From assembly GCA_945873095.1 (NCBI GenBank), contig CAMCBU010000015.1, positions 1 through 47,635 of the forward strand: a stretch of DNA of 47,635 nucleotides, read 5' to 3'. A program made the position numbers and the translations under genes. Origin of the DNA: Klebsiella pneumoniae. Lineage in GTDB: Bacteria; Pseudomonadota; Gammaproteobacteria; Steroidobacterales; Steroidobacteraceae. Below are positions 9,850-32,140 of the stretch, piece by piece (the stretch's first letter is position 1; each line of letters opens with the position of its first letter). A model generated the notes under the pieces. The model had not been told where the DNA came from. It did not search any database and saw only the letters and a list, made by a program, of their open reading frames with translations.

Positions 9850-11286
9850 TCAGGCGTGAGCTGATGCCGGATTCGGGATGAGGACGGGCGTTACCTGGCC
9901 TTGCCCGATCGTTTTGGCGACGTTGTAGACCATGAGGAACATGCCAAACAGCACCAACACGCCGCCTAGTAAGCGAATCCCGTAGTACGGATAGGTGGCG
10001 TTGAGCGCTTCGACGAAGGTGTAGGTCAGCGTGCCGTCGGGATTCGTTGCGCGCCACATGAGACCCTGCATGACGCCCGCAATCCACATCGAGACGGTGT
10101 AGAGCACGATACCGATGGTGGTCGTCCAGAAGTGCACGTCGATCAGCTTCGTGCTCCACATTTGCGTCTGACCAAACAGGCGCGGGATCAACATGTAGAG
10201 CGAACCGACCGAGACCATCGCGACCCAACCGAGCGCACCCGAGTGCACGTGCCCGATCGTCCAGTCCGTATAGTGCGAGAGAGCGTTGATAGTCTTGATC
10301 GACATCATCGGTCCTTCGAAAGTCGACATGCCGTAGAACGACAGCGACACGATCAAGAACTTCAAGATAGGGTCGGTACGCAACTTATGCCACGCGCCCG
10401 AGAGCGTCATGATGCCGTTGATCATGCCGCCCCACGACGGGGCGAGCAGCATCAATGAAAACACCATACCGATGCTTTGCGCCCAATCGGGCAGCGTGGT
10501 GTAGTGCAAATGGTGCGGACCGGCCCACATGTAAATGGAGATCAGCGACCAAAAGTGCACGATTGAGAGACGATAAGAGTAGATCGGACGACCCGCCTGT
10601 TTTGGCACGAAGTAATACATCATGCCGAGGAATGCGGCAGTCAGGAAAAAGCCGACCGCATTGTGTCCATACCACCATTGCACCATCGCATCGACCACAC
10701 CGGCATAGGCCGAGTAGCTCTTCGTGAGCGTCACCGGAATGGCGGCGCTGTTGACGATGTGTAAGACGGCGACCGTGATGATGAAGGCCGCGAAGAACCA
10801 GTTGGCGACGTAGATGTGCGACACCTTGCGCTTGGCAAGTGTTCCGAGAAACACGATCGCATAGGCGACCCACACCACCGCGATCAGGATGTCGATCGGC
10901 CATTCGAGTTCCGCATATTCTTTGCTGCTCGTCATACCGAGCGGCAAGGTGATCGCAGCCGATAAGATCACCAGTTGCCAACCCCAGAACGTGAACGCGG
11001 CGAGACCATCCGAGTAGAGTCGCGTGTGACAGGTGCGCTGCACGATGTAGTAGGAGGTGGCGAAGATGGCCGAACCGCCGAAGGCGAAAATCACGGCGTT
11101 CGTATGCAGTGGTCGCAGGCGACTGAAGGTCAGCCAAGGCGTGTCGAAGTTGAGTTCGGGGAACATCAACTGGGCGGCGATGATGACGCCCACGAGCATG
11201 CCGACGACGCCCCAGACGACGGTCATGATGGCGAATTGCCTCACCACCTTGTCGTTGTAGGACACGGCCGCGGTATTTGCAGTCAT
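9850..11286 (-). CDS. ccoN: cbb3-type cytochrome c oxidase catalytic subunit I
   Basis: The 478-residue heme-copper oxidase catalytic subunit, which reduces O2 to water with high affinity. Conserved histidines are visible in [14 protein letters not shown] (heme b), [10 protein letters not shown] and GPHHLHY (CuB region), and [12 protein letters not shown] (heme ligands). About 12 membrane helices fit the family. It lies 99 nt downstream of fixJ on the same strand. I could not find a convincing promoter or Fnr-type box by eye in that gap, so it may share the fixLJ transcript. Confidence 0.97.
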
Positions 11287-11385
11287 TCTGGAGAGCCCCC
11301 CGAGTGTTGAACGCGGGAATTTTCTCCGGCGGCGCGCCGTCGTTGAATAAGTAGATCACGCAGGCGTAAGCGCGCCCGCGCGAGA
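11287..11385 (-). promoter_or_regulatory. fixJ-ccoN intergenic gap, no clear control site
   Basis: A 99-nt gap between fixJ and ccoN where a promoter or FixJ/Fnr-type control site for the oxidase would be expected. A half-site TTGA and a TCA occur at 11343-11357, but their spacing does not fit TTGATNNNNATCAA. No sigma70 hexamer pair stands out. The segment is recorded as the likely location of oxidase control, without an identified element. Confidence 0.3.
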
Positions 11386-12000
11386 TCAGACGGTTTTGTC
11401 GAGCTCGAGCACCATACGCACGAGTTGCGCGAGCGATTGCGCCCCCATCTTTTCCATCACCCGCGCGCGGTGGATTTCGACGGTGCGTTGACTGACGCCG
11501 AGATCGCCGGCCATGACCTTGTTGGCCTTACCCTGCGTGACCAGTTGCAGGACTTCCTGTTCGCGCGGGGTCAGGGAGTCGAAACGGTGGCGTAGCGTTG
11601 CCCGTTGTTGCAACAACTGACGATGCTCGGCGTCACTCGTCAGCGCGCGCTGCACCCGATCGATCAGCTCTTGATCGCCAAAGGGCTTCTGCAAGAAGTC
11701 GAAGGCGCCGTGTTGGATGGCTTCGACGGCCATTGGGATATCGCCATGTCCGCTGATGAAAATCACCGGAATGATCGCGCCGCGTTGATTGAGCTCGGTC
11801 TGTAGTTCGATGCCGCTCATCCCCGGCATGCGCACATCGAGGACGAGACAGCCGGGTTGTTCGCCATCCCATGTGGCGAGGAATTCTTGGGCGGACGCAT
11901 ACGCAACGGTCGGGAGTCCGACCGACTTCAACAGCAGCCGCAACGAGCTGCGAACGGCATCATCGTCATCCACAACATGCACGGTGGCAGGGCGCGTCAT
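11386..12000 (-). CDS. fixJ: FixJ-family response regulator
   Basis: A 204-residue response regulator. The receiver domain has the acidic pair in VVDDDD near residues 10-14, the phosphoacceptor Asp55 in LVLDVRMPGMSG and Lys in LQKPF. A C-terminal LuxR/FixJ helix-turn-helix (SLTPREQEVLQLV...VSQRTVEIHRARVMEKM) follows. Its start overlaps the fixL stop by 4 nt (ATGA), so it is the cognate partner. In rhizobia FixJ activates fixK and respiratory genes under low O2. Here the next downstream gene is ccoN, suggesting control of the oxidase, direct or through an Fnr-type regulator outside the window. Confidence 0.93.
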   Translation of the reverse strand: MTRPATVHVVDDDDAVRSSLRLLLKSVGLPTVAYASAQEFLATWDGEQPGCLVLDVRMPGMSGIELQTELNQRGAIIPVIFISGHGDIPMAVEAIQHGAFDFLQKPFGDQELIDRVQRALTSDAEHRQLLQQRATLRHRFDSLTPREQEVLQLVTQGKANKVMAGDLGVSQRTVEIHRARVMEKMGAQSLAQLVRMVLELDKTV

Positions 12001-13529
12001 CGGGGTGGCTCTCCGGAGTAAGGAAGGCTCAAGGTAAATCGTGCACCGCCCGCAGAGGATGCGTCATAACTCAATTTACCCCGATGCGCTTCGGCGATGG
12101 TACGACTGATGGCAAGGCCGAGACCCGTGCCGGTCGCCTTGGTCGTGCAGAAGGGATCGAATATTCGACCGACGAGATCGGCGGGAACACCGGGGCCGGT
12201 ATCCTCGATGACCAGCTGGACGGTTTGATCAGACCAGCTCGTTTGCAGATGGATTTCACGTTGACCGCGCGGTCGCTCCGCTAACGCTTCGATCGAATTG
12301 CGCAATAGGTTCAAAACGATCTGCTGGATCTGAATTCGATCGAGCAGCGTGGTCGGCATGCTCGGATCGAACTGCGGCACGATACGTACCTCGTTCAATT
12401 TGGCATCGCCCGCCACGAAGCCGATGACCTCGGCGATCGCCTCGTTGAGATCCGACGGTTCATGCCGCGTCTGCCGATTTTGCACGAGTGCGCGCAAGCG
12501 TCGGATGATCTCGCCTGCACGCAGCGCCTGTTGACTGATCTGATCGAGCGCCATGCGCACATCGCCATCGGGATCGGCGATCGACAGATCCGCTTGCGCT
12601 GCCAAGCGCAAGGCCGCATTGGCGTAGTTGGCGATCGCGGCGAGCGGTTGATTCAGCTCGTGCGCGATTCCCGCGGCCATTTCACCCATGGTGGCAAGCC
12701 GCGAGACTTGGGTCATGCGTGCCTGCGAAGCTCGGGCCTCTTCCTCGGCTTTGCGTGAGTCGGTGATGTCTTCGCCCGAGGAGAAGAAGCCGGTGAGATG
12801 GCCACCCGCGTTGCGGATCGCAATGCAGCGCCAAGCGATCAGTCGTCGATCGCCGGTCGCCGAGAGCACATCGTGTTCGAAATAGCGTTCATCGCCGGTG
12901 GAGTTGGTCGCGACATCGCCGAAGGCGCGCGCAACGTCTTGATGTTGATCGGCGGGGACGGCGAGCTCTAGCCAATCGCGGCCGAGTAGATCCATCTCGC
13001 GTCGACCGAGCGACTCACAGCCGCGACGATTGATCAGTTGCACACGTCGGTCGGGCGAGAGCGCCAGCAGGATGACCTGCGCCATCTCGAGATACATGTT
13101 GGCGCGGTCGCGCTCGCGTCGAATGGCTGACATCGCCTCGCGACGTAGCGTGATGTCGTGTAGCAGTCCGACAAACCTAGGCGGGTTTGCACCGTGGATC
13201 TGTCCCACCGAGAGGAAAACAGGGAACACGGAGCCATCTTTGCGCCGCGCGTCGACCTCTCGGCCGATACCGATGATGTGCGCAACGCCAGTGGATAGGT
13301 AGCGACCCATGTAGTGATCGTGTGATTCGGAATCGGTCCGCGTCATCAAAACACTGACGTTGCGTCCGATGAGCTCGTCCGCGCGATACCCGAAGAGGCG
13401 TTCGCCGGAGCGATTGAAGCTTTCGATGATCCCGCGCGCGTCGATGATGATCACGGCATCGACGGTGGCATCGAGCAAGGCCTGCATCTCGGGCGGGCGT
13501 GGCGGGCTGACCTCGGGAGTGGGGCGCAT
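11997..13529 (-). CDS. fixL: Oxygen sensor histidine kinase FixL (heme PAS)
   Basis: A 510-residue soluble sensor kinase with two PAS domains and a HisKA/HATPase module. The first PAS carries the residues known to hold and read heme in Bradyrhizobium FixL: proximal His70 (ESHDHY), Arg76 (GRY), His84 (AHIIGIGR) and Arg90, equivalent to His200, Arg206, His214 and Arg220. The second PAS spans about 145-258. The H-box HELNQPLAAI places the phosphorylated His at 290, followed by an N-box and GTGLGLAI. No membrane helices are seen. By homology it is an O2 sensor that phosphorylates FixJ when oxygen falls. Confidence 0.93.
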   Translation of the reverse strand: MRPTPEVSPPRPPEMQALLDATVDAVIIIDARGIIESFNRSGERLFGYRADELIGRNVSVLMTRTDSESHDHYMGRYLSTGVAHIIGIGREVDARRKDGSVFPVFLSVGQIHGANPPRFVGLLHDITLRREAMSAIRRERDRANMYLEMAQVILLALSPDRRVQLINRRGCESLGRREMDLLGRDWLELAVPADQHQDVARAFGDVATNSTGDERYFEHDVLSATGDRRLIAWRCIAIRNAGGHLTGFFSSGEDITDSRKAEEEARASQARMTQVSRLATMGEMAAGIAHELNQPLAAIANYANAALRLAAQADLSIADPDGDVRMALDQISQQALRAGEIIRRLRALVQNRQTRHEPSDLNEAIAEVIGFVAGDAKLNEVRIVPQFDPSMPTTLLDRIQIQQIVLNLLRNSIEALAERPRGQREIHLQTSWSDQTVQLVIEDTGPGVPADLVGRIFDPFCTTKATGTGLGLAISRTIAEAHRGKLSYDASSAGGARFTLSLPYSGEPPR

Positions 13530-14693: not shown

Positions 14694-15941
14694 ATGAAGA
14701 CGATGCTCACCGTGGCGCTCATTGTGTTGACTTCGCTCGCCGCTCTGGCTGCACCGCCGGATGACGAGGCGGTGTATCAGGCGAGGTTTGCGCAATTGTT
14801 CGCGTCGTTTCGTGCTGGACTCGGCCTCGAGTCCTACGAGCCACTCGAGCCGGTGCCGGGCGCGAGCGATCATCAGCCCCTGCGATCGGCTAGCCATGCG
14901 AGCATCGATACTTCCGCCTTGCAAAGGGCGCGCGAGTACGCCGCGGCGAACCGTTCGTCGGCATTTCTCGTTTGGCGCGACGGCGTCCTCGAGGAGTCGA
15001 GCTATTTCGGCGACACCCGGGCCGAGACCTTGCTGACCTCGCGTTCGCTCGCCAAACCGATGACCGCCATTGCGATCGGTCGGGCGATCGCACTCGGCAA
15101 GATTCGATCTCTCGATCAAGCGGTGGCCGACTTCATTCCCGAGTGGCGTGACGATGCGCGTCGCCGTTCGATTCTGGTGAGACACATGCTCGATATGCGA
15201 TCGGGCTTTCTACCCCAAGCCATGTCGCCGGATCCGACGCACATTCTCAATCGCGCCTATCTGCATCCGCGCCACGACGAGATCATCATCCGCGAATATC
15301 CCGTGGTTGACGCGCCGGGCTCCCGCTACGAATACAACAACGCCGCATCGGAACTGGTGGCGGTGTTGATCGAGCGCGCCACGGGTCGGCGCTATGCCGA
15401 GTTCATCTCGAGCGAAGTGCTGCAGCCGATCGGTGCGCCCGGTGGCAACGTTTGGGTGAATCGTCCGGGTGGCGTGGCTCACTCCGGTTGTTGTTTGATG
15501 CTGCCCGCTGAAGCTTGGCTGCGTCTCGGAATTTTGCTCGCGAGCGATGGCATCTGGCAGGGTCGGCGCCTGATGCCTGCGGGGTATGTCGCCGAGATGC
15601 GTAGGCCGACCCGCGAGAATCCTTACTACGGCCTCGGCGTTTACGTGGCGGGCGAGTACACGCCGCGCCGGGGCTTTGCCCATCCCGAGCGCGAAGCCGA
15701 CTCGCGCAAGGTGCTGCATTCGGAGCCGTATCTCGCCGCGGATCTCTTCATGTTCGACGGCAACGCGAACCAAGTCGTCTACATCATCCCCTCCGAGCGG
15801 CTCGTGATCCTGCGGATGGGGGACAACCCGCCACGCGGCGAGGGTAAGGAATGGGATAACACGGTACTGCCGAATACCGTGCTCCGAGGTATCCTTCGCG
15901 CCCGCGCGGGAGCCGCCCCCAATGGGCCTGATTCCCGCTAA
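14694..15941 (+). CDS. Secreted serine hydrolase, class C beta-lactamase-like
   Basis: A 415-residue penicillin-binding-type serine hydrolase with a Sec signal peptide (MKTMLTVALIVLTSLAALAA). The nucleophile motif SxxK is SLAK at residues 118-121, and the second motif YxN is YNN at 214-216. The third motif is not KTG; HSGCC occupies the expected region, as in esterase or peptidase members of the family rather than true AmpC. The likely role is hydrolysis of an ester or amide in the periplasm; the substrate is unknown. It stands alone upstream of the RND operon. Confidence 0.85.
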   Translation: MKTMLTVALIVLTSLAALAAPPDDEAVYQARFAQLFASFRAGLGLESYEPLEPVPGASDHQPLRSASHASIDTSALQRAREYAAANRSSAFLVWRDGVLEESSYFGDTRAETLLTSRSLAKPMTAIAIGRAIALGKIRSLDQAVADFIPEWRDDARRRSILVRHMLDMRSGFLPQAMSPDPTHILNRAYLHPRHDEIIIREYPVVDAPGSRYEYNNAASELVAVLIERATGRRYAEFISSEVLQPIGAPGGNVWVNRPGGVAHSGCCLMLPAEAWLRLGILLASDGIWQGRRLMPAGYVAEMRRPTRENPYYGLGVYVAGEYTPRRGFAHPEREADSRKVLHSEPYLAADLFMFDGNANQVVYIIPSERLVILRMGDNPPRGEGKEWDNTVLPNTVLRGILRARAGAAPNGPDSR

Positions 15942-21934: not shown

Positions 21935-23548
21935 TCACCACTCGCGCCCTCGAGTCTCCGGCACAAATTTCAGCGCCAGCACGAAGGCGATCGCCATGAC
22001 CGCGACGGGATACCAGAGACCCGCGAGCACATCGCCCGAGCGGGCGACCAGCCAAGCTGCCGTCAGCGGCATGAAACCACCAAACCACGCGCTCGTGAGG
22101 TGATAAGGCACCGACAACGCCGTGTATCGGATGCGGGTTGGGAATGCCTCGGCCAACCACCCGGCGCCAGGGCCGCAGGTGAGCCCCGCGCCGATGATCA
22201 TCACCAGAATGAGTCCGACGAGACTCCAATGGGTGGCGTCCAGATCGCTCAGGCTTCGCAGAGGTTGGACGGCGGAACGCTCGGGGTAGCCCGCCGCGGC
22301 GAGTGCGGCGGCGAGAGCTTCGCGATCGAAGCCCGCGAGTTCCCGATCGGCGATGCGGATGATCAATGCGGGTCGATCGTCGCCCGCCCAAACAGGTGCT
22401 TCGTTCGAATAGGAGATACCACGTTTGGCGAGATAATCACGCGCCTTGGTTGCCTCATCGAGATCTTTGGGATCGGCGAGGGGATCAAAACGCGTCGGTG
22501 GTGCTACGACCACAATGGGCGCCTCGCGCTGCGCATTCTCGAGCGCCGGATTGCCGAGAGTGAGCATGCCGCGATAAGCCGGCATGATGGTGAGTGCGGT
22601 GAGCAGCATGCCGGTGAGGATCACGGGCCGCCGACCGATACGATCCGACAGGGCGCCGGCGGCCACATAGACGGCGATACCGAGCACGAGCGCGAGCACG
22701 ATGAGCGCTGAGGCGGTGGCAGTATCGATCAGCAGTGCCGTCTGCAGGAAGACGAGCGAGTAGAACTGCGCGGTGTACCAACTGAGCGCCATGGCCGCTG
22801 CGACGATGACGGCGCCGAGCATGCTGGCGCGATGTTCGCTCGAGAGCAGACTTTCTTTGATCGGTGATTCGGCGAGCTCACCTTTGCGCTTGAGCTCTTC
22901 AAAGAGTGGCGATTCGGCGATGTGCACGCGGATGTACACCGACAGCGCGAGTAAGACGACCGATAGCAAGAATGGCAAGCGCCAGCCCCACGCACGAAAT
23001 TCCTCATCGCCCAACACGAGTCGGCAGGCCACGATCACGAGCAACGAGAGTACGAGTCCGATCGTCGCCGTCGTCTGGATCCAACTTGTGAAGAAGCCGC
23101 GTCGATCGCTTCGACAATGTTCGGCGATGTAGATCGCGGCGCCACCATACTCACCTCCGAGTGCGAGACCCTGAATGAGCCGCAAGCTGACGAGTAGCGC
23201 AGGCGCCCACCAGCCGATGGTTTCGAAGTCGGGCAGAACCCCCACTAACGCAGTCGAGAGCCCCATCAGCACGATGGTGATGAGGAAGGTCTTTTTGCGT
23301 CCCACGCGATCGCCCAAGCGTCCGAAAATCAAGGCTCCCAAGGGGCGGATGGCAAATCCGGCGCCGAAAGTCGCGAGACTCGCGAGCAGTGCCGCGGTCT
23401 CGTTGCCCGGCGGAAAGAACAGCGCGCCGAAGAACGTGGCGAGACTGCCGTAGAGGAGGAAATCGTAGTACTCGAAGACCGTTCCCGTGGAGGCGGCGAC
23501 GACGACGCGCGACATCGGTGTTGTGGGAGGGGATGGATTCGGGCTCAT
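21935..23548 (-). CDS. MFS transporter, metabolite:H+ symporter type
   Basis: A major facilitator of about 537 residues resembling the MHS family (shikimate, proline/betaine, alpha-ketoglutarate symporters). The helix 2-3 loop motif is GRLGDRVGRKKTF and the mirror motif is GALSDRIGRRP. An unusual hydrophilic insertion of about 100 residues (TRFDPLADPKDLDEATKARD... to DLDATHW) separates helices late in the second half. The start is ATG 23548 or GTG 23554; the latter has GAGG 10 nt upstream. It is divergent from the alpha/beta hydrolase across 62-68 bp, so the two may share a substrate. The solute is unknown. Confidence 0.88.
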   Translation of the reverse strand: MSPNPSPPTTPMSRVVVAASTGTVFEYYDFLLYGSLATFFGALFFPPGNETAALLASLATFGAGFAIRPLGALIFGRLGDRVGRKKTFLITIVLMGLSTALVGVLPDFETIGWWAPALLVSLRLIQGLALGGEYGGAAIYIAEHCRSDRRGFFTSWIQTTATIGLVLSLLVIVACRLVLGDEEFRAWGWRLPFLLSVVLLALSVYIRVHIAESPLFEELKRKGELAESPIKESLLSSEHRASMLGAVIVAAAMALSWYTAQFYSLVFLQTALLIDTATASALIVLALVLGIAVYVAAGALSDRIGRRPVILTGMLLTALTIMPAYRGMLTLGNPALENAQREAPIVVVAPPTRFDPLADPKDLDEATKARDYLAKRGISYSNEAPVWAGDDRPALIIRIADRELAGFDREALAAALAAAGYPERSAVQPLRSLSDLDATHWSLVGLILVMIIGAGLTCGPGAGWLAEAFPTRIRYTALSVPYHLTSAWFGGFMPLTAAWLVARSGDVLAGLWYPVAVMAIAFVLALKFVPETRGREW

Positions 23549-23616
23549 GTTCACACAGAGGTAACCTCAGCCGATTGTAGGGCGAACCGGCAACCGGTGG
23601 GCGGTAGACTCAGACG

Positions 23617-24432
23617 ATGAAGATCGAATCACGCATCCGTCGCGGCTACTTCGATGGACACACCGGACAAGTGCATTATCGACTCATCGGTGCACGTGGC
23701 GGGCGACCTTTGTTGCTCTTGCACCAGTCGCCCTTGTCGGGAACCCAGTTCGATGCAGCAATGCCGTTGCTGGCGAGGCTGGGGTTTTGTGTCGTCGCTC
23801 CGGATATGCCGGGGTTTGGCATGTCAGACGTGCCGTCTGAAGCTGCCACTCTCGATGACTTCGCGAGCATCATCGATGCCGTGCTCGACGGGATGCAATG
23901 GTCGAAAGCGAGCATCGTCGGTCATCACACCGGTGCGGTGTTGGGCTCGATCTATGCGCGTCGTCGTCCCGAGGCCGTCGAGAAACTGGTGCTGAACGGA
24001 TTTCCCTTGTTGGGTGCAGCCGAGCGCGAGCACTTTGCGAGTTTCTATTTTGGACCGAAAGAGCCGCAGCTCGACGGCTCGCATCTGCTCAAGGCGTGGG
24101 AAACGCGACTGCGCGCCACGCCCGGTTGGACCGACATCCATCTGATGCATCGTTACACCATCGAGGCGCTGCATCGCGGCGCCACCAACTGGAAGGCGTT
24201 TCCCCTCGTGATCGGTGCGGATCTCGAGAGCGTGTTGCGTGAGCTCACCGTGCCGACGCTGATGTTCACCAACACCGGTGAAGATCTCTACGAGTCGACA
24301 CGTCGCGCATGGCAGTTGCGGCCCGATTTTTTCGCCTATGCAGAGCTGCAGGGCGGCACTCACGACATCGTCGATGAACAACCGCGAGCCTGGGTCGAGA
24401 CCATCGCTCGGTTTCTTGATACCGCTGTCTAA
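23617..24432 (+). CDS. Alpha/beta hydrolase with His at the nucleophile position
   Basis: A 271-residue alpha/beta-hydrolase fold protein. The oxyanion segment LLLLHQSPLSG and the strand APDMPGFGMSD are typical, and the C-terminal catalytic His is plausible in GGTHDIVDE. The nucleophile elbow, normally GxSxG, reads GHHTG near residues 106-110, with His where Ser, Asp or Cys is expected; the codons GGT CAT CAC ACC GGT are clear. It may act without a classical acyl-enzyme or use another residue. No signal peptide. Divergent from the MFS transporter and convergent (4-nt overlap) with the GntP-type permease. Confidence 0.85.
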   Translation: MKIESRIRRGYFDGHTGQVHYRLIGARGGRPLLLLHQSPLSGTQFDAAMPLLARLGFCVVAPDMPGFGMSDVPSEAATLDDFASIIDAVLDGMQWSKASIVGHHTGAVLGSIYARRRPEAVEKLVLNGFPLLGAAEREHFASFYFGPKEPQLDGSHLLKAWETRLRATPGWTDIHLMHRYTIEALHRGATNWKAFPLVIGADLESVLRELTVPTLMFTNTGEDLYESTRRAWQLRPDFFAYAELQGGTHDIVDEQPRAWVETIARFLDTAV

Positions 24433-25742
24433 AAACTGAGTAGCGCTACGGCAAGTGCGGTACCGATTGCAGGCACGATGACGGTGAGCGCGCCGACAGC
24501 CGGGTAGGCCGCCGCATAAGTTTCCTTGCAGATGCCACGCAAGGTGGTGACGACATAGCCGTTGTGTGGCAATGAGTCGAGCGCGCCCGACGAGATGGAT
24601 ACCACCCGATGCAGCCCTTCCGGATCGACACCGAGGTCTAAGTAGTGTGGTGCGATCAAAGGCAGCGCAATACTTTGACCGCCGGAGGCAGAGCCGGTCA
24701 ATCCGGCGATGACCGAGACGGCAATCGCTGCGCCGATCAAAGGCTCGCCGGGTAACGAGGTCATGGTGGCGACTGCTGCTTGAAAACCCGGCGTGAGCTT
24801 GGCGACCGAACCGAAGCCCACGACGGCTGCCGTGTTGGCGATGGCGATCAACGCGCCGAGCGCGCCGCTCGCCGCCGCTTCGCCGTAGCGACCGGTCAAT
24901 TGCGGCAGATGCAGCGTGATCGCGGCGATGACTCCGAGCCCGAGGGCCAGAATGAGAGCGGATTCTTTGAGCGTGTCGTGCCATAGGAACGAGACCGTCA
25001 AGACGACCAGTAGCGGCACAGCCCCGCGCCAGAGCGCCGGTAGTTCGCGCGTGACGGTCGAGGACGGGTCATTTGCTCGCGCTTCGAATATTTCACCGTT
25101 GGCCACTGCGCGACGAATCAGCACGCGCAGCCAGATATAGCCTCCGATCGCCATCGAGACCGCGACGATCAAACTGGTTTCGGCTGCCGCATAGGGTGTC
25201 GTTCCCAAAAACTTGATCGGGATCCAGTTCTGGATTTCGGGTGATCCCGCTGAGGTCATGGTGAAAGTCACCGATCCGAACGCGAGCGCGGCGGGTATGA
25301 AGCGACGGGGAAGATTCGCCACCTTGAAGAGCGAGAGCGCCATGGGGAACACGGAGAAGGCGACCACGAAGAGCGAGACGCCTCCGTAGGTGAGCACGGC
25401 GCAGGCCAGCACGACCGCCAGCGGTGCGTGTTTGGCACCGGTGCGATCGACGATCCAGGCAGCGACCGAGTCCGCTGCACCGCTCGCTTCCATGACCTTG
25501 CCGAAGAGAGATCCCAGCAAAAACATGAAGAACCAAGTTTGGATGAAGCCGACGAAGCCGCCCATGTAAGCGCTGGTGAATGCGGGCGCATCGCTTGCGG
25601 CTAAGGAGGGGAAAGGGACGATGCCACTCGTGGCCGCGACGAACAAGGCGCACAGTGGCGCTGCAATGAGTAACTCGACGCCGCGGATCGTCAGGTAGAC
25701 GAGCAGGGCGAGACCGACGATCAGACCGAGCAGGCTCAGCAT
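24429..25742 (-). CDS. GntP-family permease, possibly for 3-hydroxybutyrate
   Basis: A 437-residue permease of the GntP (gluconate/hydroxy-acid:H+ symporter) family with about 12-14 membrane segments. The family end-motif reads SISSGALDSLPHNGYVVTTL, and another conserved stretch is GLTGSASGGQS. Family members carry gluconate, citrate or D-3-hydroxybutyrate. It starts 1 nt after the 3-hydroxybutyrate-oligomer hydrolase gene, so uptake of the released hydroxy acid is the most economical reading. The family is secure; the substrate is inferred from the neighbour. Confidence 0.88.
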   Translation of the reverse strand: MLSLLGLIVGLALLVYLTIRGVELLIAAPLCALFVAATSGIVPFPSLAASDAPAFTSAYMGGFVGFIQTWFFMFLLGSLFGKVMEASGAADSVAAWIVDRTGAKHAPLAVVLACAVLTYGGVSLFVVAFSVFPMALSLFKVANLPRRFIPAALAFGSVTFTMTSAGSPEIQNWIPIKFLGTTPYAAAETSLIVAVSMAIGGYIWLRVLIRRAVANGEIFEARANDPSSTVTRELPALWRGAVPLLVVLTVSFLWHDTLKESALILALGLGVIAAITLHLPQLTGRYGEAAASGALGALIAIANTAAVVGFGSVAKLTPGFQAAVATMTSLPGEPLIGAAIAVSVIAGLTGSASGGQSIALPLIAPHYLDLGVDPEGLHRVVSISSGALDSLPHNGYVVTTLRGICKETYAAAYPAVGALTVIVPAIGTALAVALLSF

Positions 25743-25743
25743 A

Positions 25744-27465
25744 TCAGCGCAGTATGCCCGAGGCGGGCAGCGCTTTGCCTTCGGTCAAAAACGCCTGCAC
25801 GTCGTCCAACGAACGATCGACGAAAGGCTGCATGGGTACGAAAGCCGGTTCCATACCCGGTATGGCGAGAAAGGCGTCGAAGTGTTGGCCGTTGGCGATT
25901 TCGAGGAATCGGAATTTCGGGTTGCGAGCGGTGGCCAATGAGGCATACCGACGTGAGGTGTGTGCGATGGGAATCAGCGCATCGCCGCCGCCGTGCAGCA
26001 CGATGACGGGGCGCTGGCCCGTTCGTCCCCGGACGATCAGTGATTGGGTGAGGTTACTGATGTCGGTCGAGAGGCTGCGCAGGCAACGCGCCGTGTCGTA
26101 CGAGCTCGCGTTTGCGTTCGATAAACCGCCGGCGGCATCTCGCGCCACGATATTGATCCCGGCGGTCGGTGCGATACCCGTCCCATCGCTGAAAAGTGCG
26201 GCGCGCTCACTGACCTGTAATTCGCGCGGTTGACCACCGGCATCGGTTGCCGTGAAGGAAATACCGCACGCCGGTTCGTTCAACCCGCGACGCAGATACG
26301 TCTGCGCATAAGTCGCGGCGACCGATGTCCAGAGTCCAAATTGCAGATTGACCGCGCCGAGCCGCAGCGCGGCCGGCTCGATCCCGCTCTGCAGCAAGCG
26401 CTGTCGCGCGTCGCTGGCACGACTGGTCACATCGCTGCCGCTGACGAGCCCGTCTTGCGCAAGCCGCTCGCACCAAGCGGTATGTCGCGCGAGATTCATA
26501 CCGACCACGATACCCAAGGGTGCTTCGGTCAGATTTTCGGCGAGTATCGCGCAAGGTTGTAGCATGGCGTGCAATGTTGCGTAGTCGTACAACGCCGGCG
26601 CGCCGGCGAGGTGGACGTTGGGCTCCGAGGCCACAGCCGCATCGATAAACTGTGCGTCATCGGCCTCGAGCGCTTGCAGTACGGCAGCCCCGCCATTCGA
26701 GATGCCGGCGGCGATGATCAAAGTATTCTCGGCGGTGAATGCGGCACGCTCGGGATATTCGGCAGCGAGGAGTTGCAAGGCGAGTTTACCGGCGCGTAAC
26801 AACAGGCGACCCCAGTGGGGTTCGCTCTCGAAGCTCGCGTGCGCGTGCGCCATTTGCAGCGCATGCGGGAACGGACTTGCGGCCCGGGCGATCGGTTCGA
26901 TATGACCCGAGGCCGTGAGTCGCCAGCCACCCGTGGGGTCGGTGACTCGCATGCCCAGTCCCTTGTCGTCACTGACCACGGCGCAGCCTTGACGCAGGCC
27001 CCACTGACCGACGGTCGGCAAACTACCAAAAATCCCGCGCGATCCGGAGGCCGCCGTTACGAGTAGGCAAGGCTTGTTCGGGTCGAAGCTCGCGGGAATC
27101 TGCAGGAGGAACGACGACTCGGGAAGTCGCTCACTCGCTTTGACGTGAGCGACGTACTCGACGCCTGCGATGCGTGCCTCGCTGCCATACGCCCAACGTC
27201 GCAGATCGACGAGCGCGCGCCAACTCTGCCAAATCGCACGCCGCCGCCGATCGCGCCACTCGCTGAGCTTGGAAGGCTCGGCGATGCCCGGTTGTTGGGT
27301 TAGTCCGGTAACACCGAGGCCCGCGGTGAGTAGATCATCCGTGACACCGTCGAAGACGTGCCGTTCCGGCGGTTCGTGGTAAGGGCTCGGCTGCGCCTTG
27401 GCATCGACCGATCCGCACACGAGCAGCATCGCGACGAGCGCGCCCGAGGCCGACTTAGGCGACAT
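25744..27465 (-). CDS. D-3-hydroxybutyrate oligomer hydrolase, exported
   Basis: A protein of about 573 residues resembling the 3-hydroxybutyrate-oligomer hydrolase family (EC 3.1.1.22), which cuts short oligomers of poly-3-hydroxybutyrate to monomers. Family landmarks are HVFDGVTDDLLTAGLG, VTAASGSRGIFG, WGLRQGCAVVSDDKGLG and the nucleophile segment GISNGGA (Ser256). A Sec signal peptide is present (MSPKSASGALVAMLLVCGSVDAKA). The start is ATG 27465, overlapping the CoA ligase by 11 nt; ATG 27483 is an alternative, and the longer extension runs through ligase codons. It lies between an acyl-CoA ligase and a GntP permease in one operon. Confidence 0.85.
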   Translation of the reverse strand: MSPKSASGALVAMLLVCGSVDAKAQPSPYHEPPERHVFDGVTDDLLTAGLGVTGLTQQPGIAEPSKLSEWRDRRRRAIWQSWRALVDLRRWAYGSEARIAGVEYVAHVKASERLPESSFLLQIPASFDPNKPCLLVTAASGSRGIFGSLPTVGQWGLRQGCAVVSDDKGLGMRVTDPTGGWRLTASGHIEPIARAASPFPHALQMAHAHASFESEPHWGRLLLRAGKLALQLLAAEYPERAAFTAENTLIIAAGISNGGAAVLQALEADDAQFIDAAVASEPNVHLAGAPALYDYATLHAMLQPCAILAENLTEAPLGIVVGMNLARHTAWCERLAQDGLVSGSDVTSRASDARQRLLQSGIEPAALRLGAVNLQFGLWTSVAATYAQTYLRRGLNEPACGISFTATDAGGQPRELQVSERAALFSDGTGIAPTAGINIVARDAAGGLSNANASSYDTARCLRSLSTDISNLTQSLIVRGRTGQRPVIVLHGGGDALIPIAHTSRRYASLATARNPKFRFLEIANGQHFDAFLAIPGMEPAFVPMQPFVDRSLDDVQAFLTEGKALPASGILR

Positions 27466-29059
27466 GAGATTCGAGATGAGCATGAGTTTTGCGCAGCTCC
27501 CTTTTGAGGATTTTACCGTTCGGGTTACGGGGTAGGGCATCGACCAAGGCGACGCCCGCGACACGTTGCTGACGACCCACTCGGGCGTTGATCCATTCGC
27601 GCAACTCGATCGCAAGAGACTCGCTCAGTGCCTTGCCCTCGCGAGGGACGACAATCGCATACGGAGTTTCTCCCCACTTGGCACTCTTGATGCCGATCAC
27701 GGCAATCTCGGCAACGGAAGGATGGGTCGCGGCGACGGATTCGATATCGGCGGGATACACGTTCTGCCCGCCGGAGATGATCATGTCTTTCTTGCGATCG
27801 ACGATGAAGAGGTAGCCGTGCTCGTCGAAGCGCCCGATATCGCCGGTTCGCAGCCAAGTGGCCCCGGTCGAATCGATCCAACTGCTCTCGGCATTCGCCT
27901 CGGGACGACGGTAATAGCCCGTCATGGTGATGTGACCGCGCGAGACGATCTCGCCACTCTCGCCCAACTTGACCGGGTGATCGAATTCGTCGAGCAGTTG
28001 AATGTCCGTGCCGGGTAGCGGCTTACCGACGGACATCTCGCGGCCCTCGGCGTCCTCCGGATCGAGTGTCGTGATGACGCCCTCGGTCAGTCCATAGAGC
28101 TCGATGAAAGCGCAACCAAAATCGCGCAGTGCACGTTGCTTGATCGGCAGTGGCAATGGTGAGCCGCAGCACATCAAGGCCCGGAGCGAGTGCCTCTCGG
28201 TTTTGCCGAACAGGGGGCTCTCGAGCAGGCGTTGAACGATGATCGGTACGAGCGATCCGTGCGTAATCCGTCGGGCTTCGATGGTACGCCAGACGCGTTC
28301 GGGCTCGAAGCGTCGTTCGATGACGAGAGTGCCGCCGACGACGAAGGTGCTGAGCATGCTGACCCAGCTGATGTTCGAGTACAGGCCGATCGGGCAGAGC
28401 GTGATGGCGCGCGAGTCGTAGCGCAGCGCAAGTGCGATGGAGCGCGCCCAGTCGATACGGCGGCGGTGATCGTGCGTGATGCCCTTAGGCACGCCGGTCG
28501 TCCCCGAACTGTAGATGATGTTGCAGAGCGCATCGGGCGCAACTTGGTAGTGGTCGATGTCGTCTTGCAGCGCCACATCGACGGATGCATTCAGCCAACT
28601 CGCGTAATCACGCCACGGCGCTGCAAGCACGCCCGTCGGTGCCTCTGCAGCGGCGAGCCACAGTCGCACTTGCGGGTGTTTCGTCGGCTCGAGCGCGTCG
28701 ATGTAGCTGGCACTTGCGATGACGGCCGAGGCTTCGCAATCATCGATCATTGCCGCCATCGCCTCGGCCGATACCGATACGTTGAGCGGTACCACGCAGG
28801 CGCCGGCGCGGATGACGCCAAAGAGCGCCTCCAGCATCTCGGGGCCGTTGTTCATCACGACGACGACTCGGTCGCCGGGCTGGACGCCCGAACAGCGCAG
28901 ACGTGCTGCGCAGTGCCGCAAGCGCTGACCAAAGGTCTGCCACGACCAGATGAGATCGTCGCAGACCATGGCCGGCTTCTCGCCCAACCACCGCGACTGC
29001 CGGTCGATCAGATCCGGCAGCAGCGGCTCGGGCGCGTCGAAGTGCGCCATCGTCATCAC
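27455..29059 (-). CDS. AMP-forming acyl-CoA synthetase
   Basis: A 534-residue ANL-superfamily ligase that activates a carboxylic acid with ATP and CoA. Motifs are YSSGTTGVPKG (about 183-193), YGLTEG, RTGDIG, the hinge DRKKDMIISGGQNVYP and the catalytic Lys in NPNGKILKREL. The substrate is not readable. Its operon partners suggest a short hydroxy acid such as 3-hydroxybutyrate, but medium-chain or aromatic acids are possible. The frame opens at GTG 29059 with ATGs at 29056 and 29050, only 3 nt after the receptor stop. The 3' end overlaps the oligomer hydrolase start. Confidence 0.9.
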   Translation of the reverse strand: MMTMAHFDAPEPLLPDLIDRQSRWLGEKPAMVCDDLIWSWQTFGQRLRHCAARLRCSGVQPGDRVVVVMNNGPEMLEALFGVIRAGACVVPLNVSVSAEAMAAMIDDCEASAVIASASYIDALEPTKHPQVRLWLAAAEAPTGVLAAPWRDYASWLNASVDVALQDDIDHYQVAPDALCNIIYSSGTTGVPKGITHDHRRRIDWARSIALALRYDSRAITLCPIGLYSNISWVSMLSTFVVGGTLVIERRFEPERVWRTIEARRITHGSLVPIIVQRLLESPLFGKTERHSLRALMCCGSPLPLPIKQRALRDFGCAFIELYGLTEGVITTLDPEDAEGREMSVGKPLPGTDIQLLDEFDHPVKLGESGEIVSRGHITMTGYYRRPEANAESSWIDSTGATWLRTGDIGRFDEHGYLFIVDRKKDMIISGGQNVYPADIESVAATHPSVAEIAVIGIKSAKWGETPYAIVVPREGKALSESLAIELREWINARVGRQQRVAGVALVDALPRNPNGKILKRELRKTHAHLESHVA

Positions 29060-29062
29060 CGC

Positions 29063-31291
29063 TTAGCGAAAGGAGTAGGCGATGCTGACCGAATACTGGC
29101 GAGGCGGTGCGTAGAACGCGTTCTGGACGTTGCCAAACACGGGGCCGGCGAACACATAGCCACCGATGCGATAGCGCTCATCGGTGAGATTACGGCCTGC
29201 GGCGGTTACGCTCAGGCGTCCGCTCGCGGCCGTCCACGTCGCTGCGAGATCAACGATCGAATACGACTTTTGGTCGATGGCAGGGTTCGCGACTTCAAAG
29301 AGCTGATAGTCGTCACGATAGGAGAGCGCGGGGACGACGGTCAGTGAGCCGTTGTCGCCAAGATCCTGACTCCAGTTCAGTGAGAGAGCAGCCGTCCATT
29401 CCGGCGTGTTCTGAAACGCGCGCTGACTAGCGAGATTACGACGGGTCGCCGTCGCAGCATCGTAGGTGACGAACTCGTCGAATTTCGCGTCGATGTAGCC
29501 CACTTGGAAGGCTGCCGAGAGGTTCTGCGACAGTGACAGAGAGCCCTCCAACTCAAGACCCTCGATCGACGAACTGCCCGCGTTGTCCACGAAGCTGACG
29601 ACCGTGGTGCCAATGGCAAACTGCGAGGTGATTTGTTGATCGGTGTAGTCCGAGGTGAAGATCGCTGCGTTGAGTCGTGCGCGACCGCCGAGCAGTGAAC
29701 TCTTCACACCGAGCTCGAGCGTTTCCACGATTTCCGGCTCGTAACCCTTGACCGTATCGGCGTAGAAAATCGCATCGCCACGCATGTCGAAGCCACCGGA
29801 CTTGAAGCCTTTGCCCCAAGAGCCATACACGGTCAGCGCATCGCTCGGCTCATACGAGACGCTGATACGCGGCGTGAACTCCGAGAACTCACGCTCGTTG
29901 GTGTAGTTCGTGCGCAGCAGTCCGGGAATCGCGGCAGCGTTGCCGAACAAACTGCTCCGGATGCCCGTGAAGTTCTGACGATAGACGGTGCCTTTCTTTT
30001 CGTCTTTCGTGTAGCGACCGCCGACCGAGACGGACCATTGGTCCGTGAATCGGTAGCTGAGATCGGCGAAGGCCGCAAAGCTGTCGGTTTCGACTTGACC
30101 TGCGGTTGCGGTGGTGAGATTGGCGATACCGACGATGGTGTCAAAAGCGCCGGCGGCGGTGCCGTCCATCAAGAACACACCGGCGACGGCCGAGGCTCGC
30201 TCGCCCGAGTAAACGAGCTGTAGTTCGTGAGTGGTTTGATCGTCCTCGTAGAAAGCCGGCACATCGAGTGCGGCGGCCGGTGCGGTGTCGAAATCGATCA
30301 GTGTGTCGGTGCGCCCTTCGCGGCGTGCCGCGATGTAGCGCAGCATGTACTGATCACTCAGGGTGTATTCGCCCAACAGTGAGACGCCCTCGGTGGCGAC
30401 CGAGTTGTCATCGCCCAAGCCAGCGCGCGTGTCGTACAGATTCGGCAGCACGGTTTCGCCGGTCGTCAGACCCGAACCAGCCACTTCGCGGTGACCGTGC
30501 CGCGCGTTCGAGTCATCCTGCAGATCGTCTGCCGCGAGGCGAACGAACAGGTTCTCGCTCGGCTTCCATTCCATCGCCACTCGATAGGCGAGGATATCTT
30601 TGTCGTAATGCTCAGCGCCGGTGACCAGGTTCTTACCGAAACCGTCGCGATTGAGACTGGAGAGCGCTGCACCGAGCGAGAGGGTGTCGGTGAGGGGCAG
30701 TGCGGCCTTGACCGTCAGGTCGCGCTGCGAGTACGAGCCCAGCGTGACTTTGGTGTCGAACGCGGCCTCATCGCCGAGGCGCTTGGTGACATATTTGACC
30801 GCACCACCCACAGAGTTGCGACCGTACAGTGTGCCTTGCGGACCACGCAGCACTTCGATGCGCTCGACGTCGTAGAGCTCGAGAACGGCGCCTTGCGGTC
30901 TGGCGACGTAAACATCATCGACATACAGACCCACGCCCGGTTCGAAACCCCACAGCGGATCTTGCTGGCCGACGCCACGAATGAACGCGATGAGAGTCGA
31001 GTTGCTGCCGCGGGCGACTTGCAGTGTGAGATTCGGCACCGTTTGCTGGAGGATGGTGATATCCGTCGCACCGAATTGCTCGAGATCGGAACCCGAAAAG
31101 GTGCTGACGGCAACCGGCACGTCTTGCAGCGATTCTTCGCGTCGACGTGCCGTGACGGTGATTTCCTCCAGAGCAGCGGCGCCATCTTGTGCCCGCACCG
31201 GTGCCGGCAGCAGGGTGATCATGGTGGTTCCGAGTGCCAGCGCGACAGATAGCGCGATGCGGCGTTTAGCGGTGTTGTTGAGTCCGTTCAT
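29063..31291 (-). CDS. TonB-dependent outer-membrane receptor
   Basis: A 742-residue receptor. The signal peptide (about 1-34, ending PAPVRAQ) is followed by a TonB-box-like EEITVTARRREE, a plug domain with VERIEVLRGPQGTLYGRNSVGGAV, and a 22-strand-type barrel ending in the aromatic YSVSIAYSFR. It imports a bulky ligand across the outer membrane using TonB energy. It heads the operon with CoA ligase, oligomer hydrolase and permease, so the ligand is probably their substrate, not a siderophore. A GGGG/AGG-rich ribosome site precedes ATG 31291. Confidence 0.93.
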   Translation of the reverse strand: MNGLNNTAKRRIALSVALALGTTMITLLPAPVRAQDGAAALEEITVTARRREESLQDVPVAVSTFSGSDLEQFGATDITILQQTVPNLTLQVARGSNSTLIAFIRGVGQQDPLWGFEPGVGLYVDDVYVARPQGAVLELYDVERIEVLRGPQGTLYGRNSVGGAVKYVTKRLGDEAAFDTKVTLGSYSQRDLTVKAALPLTDTLSLGAALSSLNRDGFGKNLVTGAEHYDKDILAYRVAMEWKPSENLFVRLAADDLQDDSNARHGHREVAGSGLTTGETVLPNLYDTRAGLGDDNSVATEGVSLLGEYTLSDQYMLRYIAARREGRTDTLIDFDTAPAAALDVPAFYEDDQTTHELQLVYSGERASAVAGVFLMDGTAAGAFDTIVGIANLTTATAGQVETDSFAAFADLSYRFTDQWSVSVGGRYTKDEKKGTVYRQNFTGIRSSLFGNAAAIPGLLRTNYTNEREFSEFTPRISVSYEPSDALTVYGSWGKGFKSGGFDMRGDAIFYADTVKGYEPEIVETLELGVKSSLLGGRARLNAAIFTSDYTDQQITSQFAIGTTVVSFVDNAGSSSIEGLELEGSLSLSQNLSAAFQVGYIDAKFDEFVTYDAATATRRNLASQRAFQNTPEWTAALSLNWSQDLGDNGSLTVVPALSYRDDYQLFEVANPAIDQKSYSIVDLAATWTAASGRLSVTAAGRNLTDERYRIGGYVFAGPVFGNVQNAFYAPPRQYSVSIAYSFR

Positions 31292-31303
31292 CCTGGTCCC
31301 CTG

Positions 31304-31355
31304 TTGATGAAATTATGGTTCATTAATTCAACGATCGATGAAATCTAATTCAGCG
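31304..31355. promoter_or_regulatory. Candidate TetR operator region, receptor/TetR divergent gap
   Basis: Imperfect inverted repeat TTGATGAA (31304-31311) and TTCATTAA (31319-31326), 7 of 8 matching with a 7-nt spacer, sits just before the receptor gene. A direct repeat TAATTCARCG occurs at 31324-31333 and 31346-31355, 22 bp apart (two helical turns). The locally AT-rich 130-bp gap between divergent genes suits the promoters and the TetR binding site. Confidence 0.5.
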
Positions 31356-31420
31356 TTTGTTGAAAAACAAGCCGTCGGTAGGGTTTGCCTGCAAGCCATC
31401 GCTCGGGTCAGACTCGGCGT

Positions 31421-32140
31421 ATGGCGAAAACAATGAAGTCCGCACCCCTGCGCGGTCCCCGCAAAGCCGGTCCCGAGGCAACTCGACAAAAGATCCTCGA
31501 TACCGCCGAAATTCTCTTTGCAGAGCGCGGCTTTCACTCGGTTTCGGTCCGCGACATCACGGCCGCAGCCGGGGTCGATGTGGCGCTCGTTCATTATCAC
31601 TTCGGTAGCAAGCAACTGTTGTTCGAGACGGTGTTCATGCGCCGTGCCGAGTTGCTGAACGCCGAGCGCTTGCGGCGCCTCGAAGCGGTGGTGCAGCGCG
31701 CCAAACCGCGGGCACCGAAGGTCGAGGAGATCATCGACGCCTTCACCCACCCCTTGCTGGACCGTTCGGCGCGCGGTGGCCCGGGGTGGAAGGCGTATTT
31801 TGCCCTGATCGCCCAGGTCAATAACTCGACCGAGTTCGGCGGCTTGATGATGACGCGTTACTTCGACCCGGTAGTGCACGCTTTCATCGCGGCGTTACGC
31901 CGGGCATTCCCCGGCTGTGACGAGCGTGAGCTCTATTGGAGTTACCACTTTCTCTCCGGCGCACTCACCTTGACCTTCGCCGAGACCGGTCGCATCGACA
32001 ATCTCTCGCAAGGCGCCTGTCGATCGAATGATCTCGACAGCGTGCACCAACGTCTCGTCCCCTACGTGGCGGCGGGTTTTCGGGCCCTGTGTGCAAGATC
32101 GGCGACGACGCCCGCGCGTCGCAAGCGCAGGGCGTTATGA
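31421..32140 (+). CDS. TetR-family transcriptional regulator
   Basis: A 239-residue TetR regulator. The helix-turn-helix is clear: ATRQKILDTAEILFAERGF then SVRDITAAAGVDVALVHYHFGSKQ. The C-terminal domain (about 90-225) is the ligand pocket with a large YWSYHFLSGAL helix. ATG 31421 gives a normal N-terminus. The gene is divergent from the TonB receptor operon across 130 bp holding repeats suitable as operators, so it probably represses that operon until an acid or CoA-ester ligand is present. The 3' end overlaps the convergent PhoD-like gene by 6 bp. Confidence 0.92.
   Translation: MAKTMKSAPLRGPRKAGPEATRQKILDTAEILFAERGFHSVSVRDITAAAGVDVALVHYHFGSKQLLFETVFMRRAELLNAERLRRLEAVVQRAKPRAPKVEEIIDAFTHPLLDRSARGGPGWKAYFALIAQVNNSTEFGGLMMTRYFDPVVHAFIAALRRAFPGCDERELYWSYHFLSGALTLTFAETGRIDNLSQGACRSNDLDSVHQRLVPYVAAGFRALCARSATTPARRKRRAL

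Follow-up and report, generated by a model that had tools for sequence, protein, structure and literature searches.

The operon and its gene products

The 47,635-nucleotide contig CAMCBU010000015.1 (assembly GCA_945873095.1, forward strand; hereafter the window), placed by GTDB in the Steroidobacteraceae, carries an operon which the initial annotation had read as a locus for the import and utilisation of 3-hydroxybutyrate (3HB) oligomers derived from poly-3-hydroxybutyrate (PHB). Its four minus-strand genes code for a TonB-dependent receptor (TBDR), an AMP-forming acyl-CoA ligase, an exported esterase of the 3HB-oligomer hydrolase (3HBOH) family and a GntP-type permease. As the six-frame list of open reading frames (ORFs) bears out, 3 nt separate the first two of these genes, the second and third overlap by 11 nt and 1 nt lies between the last two; a gene for a TetR-family regulator diverges from them (Table 1). 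Pfam profiles agree with all five families as annotated. The divergent orientation of the regulator gene stood as well, but its start at 31385 is a TTG codon and the ATGs at 31421 and 31433, the latter chosen by the gene caller, look likelier.

Table 1. Coordinates of the operon genes, the divergent regulator gene and the elements between them.
Feature	Position	Strand	Basis
TBDR	29063-31291	minus	Pfam plug and barrel; predicted TBDR fold; relatives near PHB genes; tree
AMP-forming acyl-CoA ligase	27455-29059	minus	Pfam AMP-binding and C-terminal domain
Exported 3HBOH-family esterase	25744-27465	minus	PF10605; conserved triad; model; signal-like N-terminus
GntP-type permease	24429-25742	minus	PF02447; relatives adjoin 3HBOH
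Divergent TetR-family regulator with TetR_C_30 domain	31385-32140, start probably 31421/31433	plus	PF00440 and PF17939
Tandem operator-like site, two 16-bp palindromes	31327-31364		Shuffles, genome scan, relatives
Promoter-like element (TTGTTT, 16-bp palindrome as spacer, TTAGAT)	31343-31370	minus	Read by eye

The product of the hydrolase gene fell inside the 3HBOH family, as had been presumed, scoring 386.7 bits on the Pfam profile PF10605 (cut-off 27). S256, D495 and H528, which are invariant in 25 aligned rows including that of the window, are proposed to form the catalytic triad, D495 and H528 in presumed roles; S256 lies in an SNG elbow between strand 249-255 and helix 257-268 of the predicted structure, which is alpha/beta-hydrolase-like with a predicted local distance difference test (pLDDT) score of 88.1. 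The closest solved folds were alpha/beta hydrolases including feruloyl esterases and MHETase, with weak TM-scores of 0.25-0.39 on the query, and a sequence search of the PDB with the hydrolase gave no match. The gene has two in-frame ATGs (27465 and 27483), and a crude test rated the N-terminus of its product as signal-like. Among the 81 hydrolase loci described below, such a start was found by this test in 21 of the 23 scored 3HBOHs from loci with a TBDR and in 36 of 50 others, a difference that is not significant (p 0.075), 8 of the 81 proteins being left unscored since no start motif was found. The window protein thus resembles the family in its profile match, its invariant Ser/Asp/His and its export signal, but has 573 aa, the match ending at position 645 of 688 in the profile, and is encoded in a receptor-led operon; to our knowledge, no member of the family has been described in such an operon.

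The receptor matched the Pfam TonB_dep_Rec barrel (141 bits) and Plug (65.8 bits) profiles, its predicted structure has the TBDR fold (pLDDT 80.8), and a signal peptide and a TonB-box-like EEITVTA were read by eye. It scored only 27 bits on the SusC model (cut-off 368), and no SusD-like match was detected among ten ORFs profiled between 20170 and 35272. Judged by its profile scores, the permease is only a distant GntP member: it reached 30.5 bits on PF02447 (cut-off 22.5) over part of the profile and 24 bits on the NCBIfam gluconate models (cut-offs 647 and 293), and a sequence search of the PDB yielded matches at chance level only. For the ligase, with 262.9 bits for the AMP-binding and 66.8 bits for the C-terminal domain, the best NCBIfam score was 401 against a cut-off of 476 and none of the best 25 of 108 matches was over cut-off, so that only membership of the general acyl-CoA ligase family is supported. 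The initial annotation had credited the locus with every step from outer-membrane uptake to CoA activation, which goes too far: oxidation of 3HB-CoA and a depolymerase for the polymer lie outside it.

Linkage of receptor, hydrolase and permease in other genomes

Gene neighbourhoods were compared in 81 loci, namely the window at full length and the 80 best of at least 485 confirmed places of the hydrolase family in bacterial genomes, which were gene-called and clustered. The counts are lower bounds, since the 80 loci extend no more than 10 kb either way and some stop at contig ends. A TBDR was present in 26 loci, GntP in 26 and both in 24, so that 28 loci had one or both (module loci); receptor and hydrolase genes thus stay together across lineages, with no such pairing at 20 control TBDR places. 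The 24 loci with both belong to Steroidobacteraceae, Lysobacteraceae, Cellvibrionaceae and Marinicellaceae (Gammaproteobacteria) and to unplaced metagenome-assembled genomes, with Lysobacter, Luteimonas, Pseudoxanthomonas, Simiduia, Pseudoteredinibacter and Marinicella among the genera. Two Rhodanobacter loci have the TBDR, one of them also a GntP match that ends at the locus end, and no locus among the 81 that is recorded as Burkholderiales or Rhodocyclaceae had the module. Gene order varies between lineages, and in Lysobacteraceae genes for PhaE and a PhaC-like protein, tested in L076 and L065 respectively, come after the hydrolase gene.

The permease is tied to the hydrolase over a wide range of divergence: relatives beside 3HBOH genes are 94-95% identical in the nearest relatives, 63-76% in Cellvibrionaceae and further Steroidobacteraceae-like loci and, along most of the protein, 35-37% in Lysobacteraceae and Marinicella. 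More distant GntP relatives (36-42% identity) were inspected in six of the 101 plasmid records that have one; they adjoin 3-hydroxybutyrate dehydrogenase in two (Cupriavidus taiwanensis and Rossellomorea), CoA-transferase, thiolase and FabG genes in one, and other genes in three. A GntP and 3-hydroxybutyrate dehydrogenase pair presumably also exists in Pseudomonas aeruginosa. Such pairs resemble the window locus in that a permease of the same broad family is tied to 3HB use, whereas the window adds a TBDR and an exported hydrolase and has a ligase instead of the dehydrogenase.

Tests starting from the receptor or the permease were made in 98 genomes, which include the window genome and two others (G001 and G005) that share the operon. 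Of these genomes, 13 have a 3HBOH, 12 a GntP permease with 65% identity or more and 9 both (Fisher p 9e-8); without the three operon-bearing genomes, the coincidence was 6 among 95 (p 2e-5). When TBDR matches were ranked by the window receptor alone and the surroundings of the 16 best were inspected, 13 shared their stretch with a 3HBOH, a type-2 depolymerase, a PHA synthase with PhaR or a close GntP, as compared to 0 of 20 lower-ranked places (30-35% identity) that were inspected for 3HBOH, type-2 depolymerase, PhaC, PhaE, PhaR and GntP (Fisher p 2e-7; 10 of 13 and p 3e-6 without the window genome, G001 and G005). The control places were hand-chosen from the lower list, not random, and for five of them the stretch was under 16 kb long, in one case 4.5 kb; general relatives of the dehydrogenase (29-33%) or the ligase (26-33%) were present at some places, as was a TetR (37%) at one. 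Within the 13, G042 counts by a stretch with only the permease, kinase and regulator, its 3HBOH and depolymerase lying about 15-20 kb away. Of the other three of the 16, G011 would join only via a contig overlap (see below), and G029 and G022 do not join. At ranks 17-20, the three inspected places (L121, L122 and L124) had no PHB gene, and G094 was left out.

Furthermore, an extracellular PHA depolymerase is encoded near four receptor relatives whose genomes lack 3HBOH; it was over the NF050059 (type-2) cut-off in 4 of 4 tested. With the depolymerase alone as the starting point, this type was over cut-off in 10 of the 98 genomes. In 7 of these, a TBDR reaches 39% identity or more (p 4e-5), its gene lying about 16 kb or less away along one contig. 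The earlier proposal that the receptor is tied to PHB is supported in relatives, where it is linked to 3HBOH and permease, to type-2 extracellular PHA depolymerase or to PHA synthase with PhaR. A PhaR gene, a class I-like PHA synthase gene (below cut-off) and a phasin-like gene (L111:15393-18202, in G092) have a receptor relative at a distance of about 4 kb. A quick tree of 63 receptors placed 33 of its 34 PHB-linked rows in one group of 37 rows with 4 others; the remaining one is the L042 receptor (25% identity, about 7.5 kb off), which is not in the count of 26 TBDRs but carries the PHB label in the tree. This tree is partly circular and has little independent weight because most receptors were found via 3HBOH, the ranking by TBDR alone being cleaner. 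Judged by this linkage, the receptor is one of a group whose association with PHB genes extends over several lineages.

The module loci differ in the enzyme that would act on 3HB. Within the 24 loci with both TBDR and GntP, the dehydrogenase cluster was present in 14 and the ligase cluster in 4 (one or the other in 18); among the 28 module loci the numbers were 14 and 6 (one of the latter, L089, a weak 25% match), and none had both. In total, the ligase cluster was met in 7 further 3HBOH loci, L089 included. The dehydrogenase of sister loci was over the cut-off of TIGR01963 (3-hydroxybutyrate dehydrogenase) in 4 of 4 tested. The two clusters do not exclude each other strictly, since a G011 contig (L123) with TetR, receptor and the start of the ligase also has a dehydrogenase-cluster gene next to TetR; both clusters are likewise present in L040 and L043, which are not module loci. 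An exact overlap of 99 bases joins the end of this G011 contig to the start of a second one, on which the remainder of the ligase is accompanied by an alpha/beta hydrolase, 3HBOH and the permease, so that G011 very likely has the gene order of the window with one hydrolase gene inserted.

In the window itself, an alpha/beta hydrolase gene (23617-24432, plus strand) is convergent with the permease gene, their ends overlapping by 4 nt; its cluster was found among the 81 loci only in the window, L029 and L030, and the product might be a cytoplasmic partner esterase. Another gene (21935-23554, minus strand) codes for a protein of the major facilitator superfamily resembling metabolite/H+ symporters (362 bits, below the cut-off of 443), which is kept in the nearest relatives and matches the profile in two stretches, as if an insert were present. 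Farther away, a gene (14694-15941, plus strand) assigned to the beta-lactamase (serine hydrolase) family of Pfam may code for an esterase or peptidase.

The TetR regulator and its operator-like site

The divergent regulator scored 58 bits on TetR_N and 124.2 bits on TetR_C_30, and its best NCBIfam match was PsrA (120.9 bits, cut-off 300). Relatives of 53-74% identity are likewise divergent from receptor relatives, and in L109 the regulator gene lies upstream of one. The gap between the TetR and receptor genes contains two palindromes of the form TTCANC-N4-GYTGAA (31327-31342 and 31349-31364), 22 bp apart from centre to centre. When the window was shuffled, a stricter palindrome pattern had an expectation of 0.00, and the genome has the tandem pattern at a single site. 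Specificity is confined to the tandem form, because the single pattern, with 6 matches at 4 genome places (two of them the window sites), is about as frequent as the reversed control with 5. The GTTGAA form of the motif was found in the TetR-receptor region of L016/L029, L019, L109, L116, L117, L118 and L123, the only other occurrence in 161 loci being in L022/L042 (the same place); by eye, Marinicella has a looser copy.

The promoter-like pattern was detected in 8 of the 161 loci, corresponding to 7 distinct places, each in a TetR-TBDR region, where the first palindrome stands between TTG-like and YTA-like hexamers 16 bp apart; L116 does not have it. This placement is as for a repressor site inside a promoter, although a scan for the sigma-70 consensus did not list the element.

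By contrast, sister loci are accompanied by genes for another type of regulator: in 21 of the 24 loci a hybrid sensor kinase cluster is present, identified on examples as a PAS hybrid histidine kinase of about 1,120-1,180 aa with a LuxR-type regulator. One of each was compared with NCBIfam and came nearest to NahK/ErcS and ErdR, below the cut-offs. The window locus differs from these sister loci in having a TetR regulator instead. For sensor-regulator systems like NahK/ErcS and ErdR, the name CrbS/CrbR is also in use. The kinase-regulator pair at L065:5644-9675 is a possible sensor of 3HB or of acetate type. A PAS histidine kinase and a LuxR-type response regulator are encoded in the window too, ahead of a COX1-family oxidase gene (9850-13487, minus strand), and this LuxR-type regulator clusters with those of the sister loci, probably as a paralogue.

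Proposed uptake route and alternatives

The assembly to which the window belongs as contig 15 has 2.49 Mb, a completeness rating of 100% and one copy of PF10605. Profile searches of this genome gave no match to PhaC_N, which was over cut-off in 42 of the 98 genomes (in 5 of them only as short weak matches), none to Esterase_PHB, which matched in 2 of 14 control genomes (once over cut-off), and none to the type-2 extracellular depolymerase found in the 10 relatives mentioned above, the depolymerase searches covering these two extracellular families. PhaC_N and type-2 matches were also absent from G001 and G005 (the latter 77% complete). Judged by these profile searches, PHB synthesis is probably absent from the window cell, as is secretion of a depolymerase belonging to either family. 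Taken together with a best 3-hydroxybutyrate dehydrogenase (PHB_DH) score of 199.1 against a cut-off of 307, this suggests an oligomer scavenger.

Following this, we propose that the operon is a TonB-dependent utilisation locus for 3HB oligomers released from PHB by other organisms, a reading that membership in the 3HBOH family and the linkage of the receptor to PHB genes support and to which we assign a probability of about 0.7. The TBDR would import the oligomers over the outer membrane with TonB energy, the exported esterase would cut them to 3HB in the periplasm, as its family and putative triad suggest, and the permease, from its gene linkage, would move 3HB into the cytoplasm, where the ligase would form 3HB-CoA, replacing the 3-hydroxybutyrate dehydrogenase of many sister loci. 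The TetR protein may repress the receptor operon, and probably itself, from the tandem site in the promoter and might be released by an acyl-CoA or related ligand. Such a cell would live on the degradation products of other species. With somewhat less assurance, we lean towards a wider view, in which a widespread gammaproteobacterial TBDR clade is dedicated to polyester oligomers, receptor, periplasmic hydrolase and 3HB permease travelling together as polyester utilisation loci, and such a locus has turned into a pure scavenger module in the window species.

Several observations weigh against this reading. In 53 of the 81 3HBOH loci, some of which end at contig ends, no such TBDR or permease was found. 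Moreover, 3HBOH occurs without a close permease in G035, G037, G054 and G056 (other genera of the family), and the permease without 3HBOH in G009, G015 and G017 (all of the window's genus). The receptor of G022 has a nearby ligase of 33% identity and no PHA gene, and the TetR-TBDR-ligase copy of G029 (L116) has none on the inspected stretch. The closest solved relatives of the ligase are fatty-acyl and feruloyl-CoA synthetases, and those of the receptor are mostly siderophore receptors. Two PF10605 members of about 30% identity, in Microvirga and Pseudomonas luteola plasmid records (L159 and L160; two inspected of four at 30-34% identity), adjoin AtuA-type and tricarboxylate/citrate transport genes, so that the family may be functionally mixed and distant members may have another substrate. 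Finally, a class III PhaC-like protein scores 19.6 on PhaC_N, below the cut-off of 23.7, and a class III synthase could thus be missed by the search.

The TetR-TBDR-ligase trio might instead serve another acid or ester, such as longer hydroxy acids or lipid or aromatic esters, with the 3HBOH-family enzyme acting as a broad esterase. The trio of G029, the ligase relatives, the PsrA match of the regulator, the other contexts of PF10605 and the closeness of the hydrolase fold to feruloyl esterase and MHETase, among others, would all fit this explanation. We nevertheless consider it unlikely, as relatives of the trio in G075, G060 and G079 adjoin a type-2 short-chain PHA depolymerase and receptor relatives occur with the 3-hydroxybutyrate dehydrogenase confirmed above. 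That the hydrolase recycles the cell's own PHB, the receptor being an unrelated neighbour, is very improbable: the Lysobacteraceae hydrolase genes upstream of PhaE and a PhaC-like gene, the 3HBOH genes without a signal-like start in the crude test and a class III synthase that escaped the search would speak for it, but the window genome, although rated complete, has no PhaC_N match, its hydrolase has a signal-like N-terminus and the tight operon is common to the window and G001. Least probable of all is uptake of an iron-siderophore by a receptor adjoining 3HB genes by chance, which the solved receptor structures would suggest but against which stand the neighbourhood contrast between best and lower-ranked receptor places, the recurrence of the linkage in distant lineages and the fact that the other three operon genes are of no iron-uptake family.

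Polysaccharide utilisation loci with TBDRs combine a TonB receptor, a periplasmic hydrolase, an inner permease and a local regulator. The window locus has the same receptor-hydrolase-permease-regulator logic, but would serve a polyester, not a glycan, its receptor is of the siderophore-receptor type, and no SusC/SusD pair as in Bacteroidetes-type loci was found among the ORFs profiled. The initial annotation knew of no well-described TBDR for PHB oligomers, and none was found in the open-licence literature, which also gave no description of PHB oligomers crossing the outer membrane, although a subscription paper could exist. PhaZ and PhaY are described in one such article, in the main text of which TonB, permease, transporter and outer membrane are absent (PMC7830162).

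As a biodegradable polyester, PHB is common both in nature and in commerce. Receptor and permease occur together as a module in Lysobacter niastensis, Luteimonas abyssi, Simiduia aestuariiviva, Marinicella marina and Pseudoxanthomonas, and the question of oligomer uptake is therefore directly testable in named strains. The locus suggests that polyester breakdown feeds cross-feeding scavengers.

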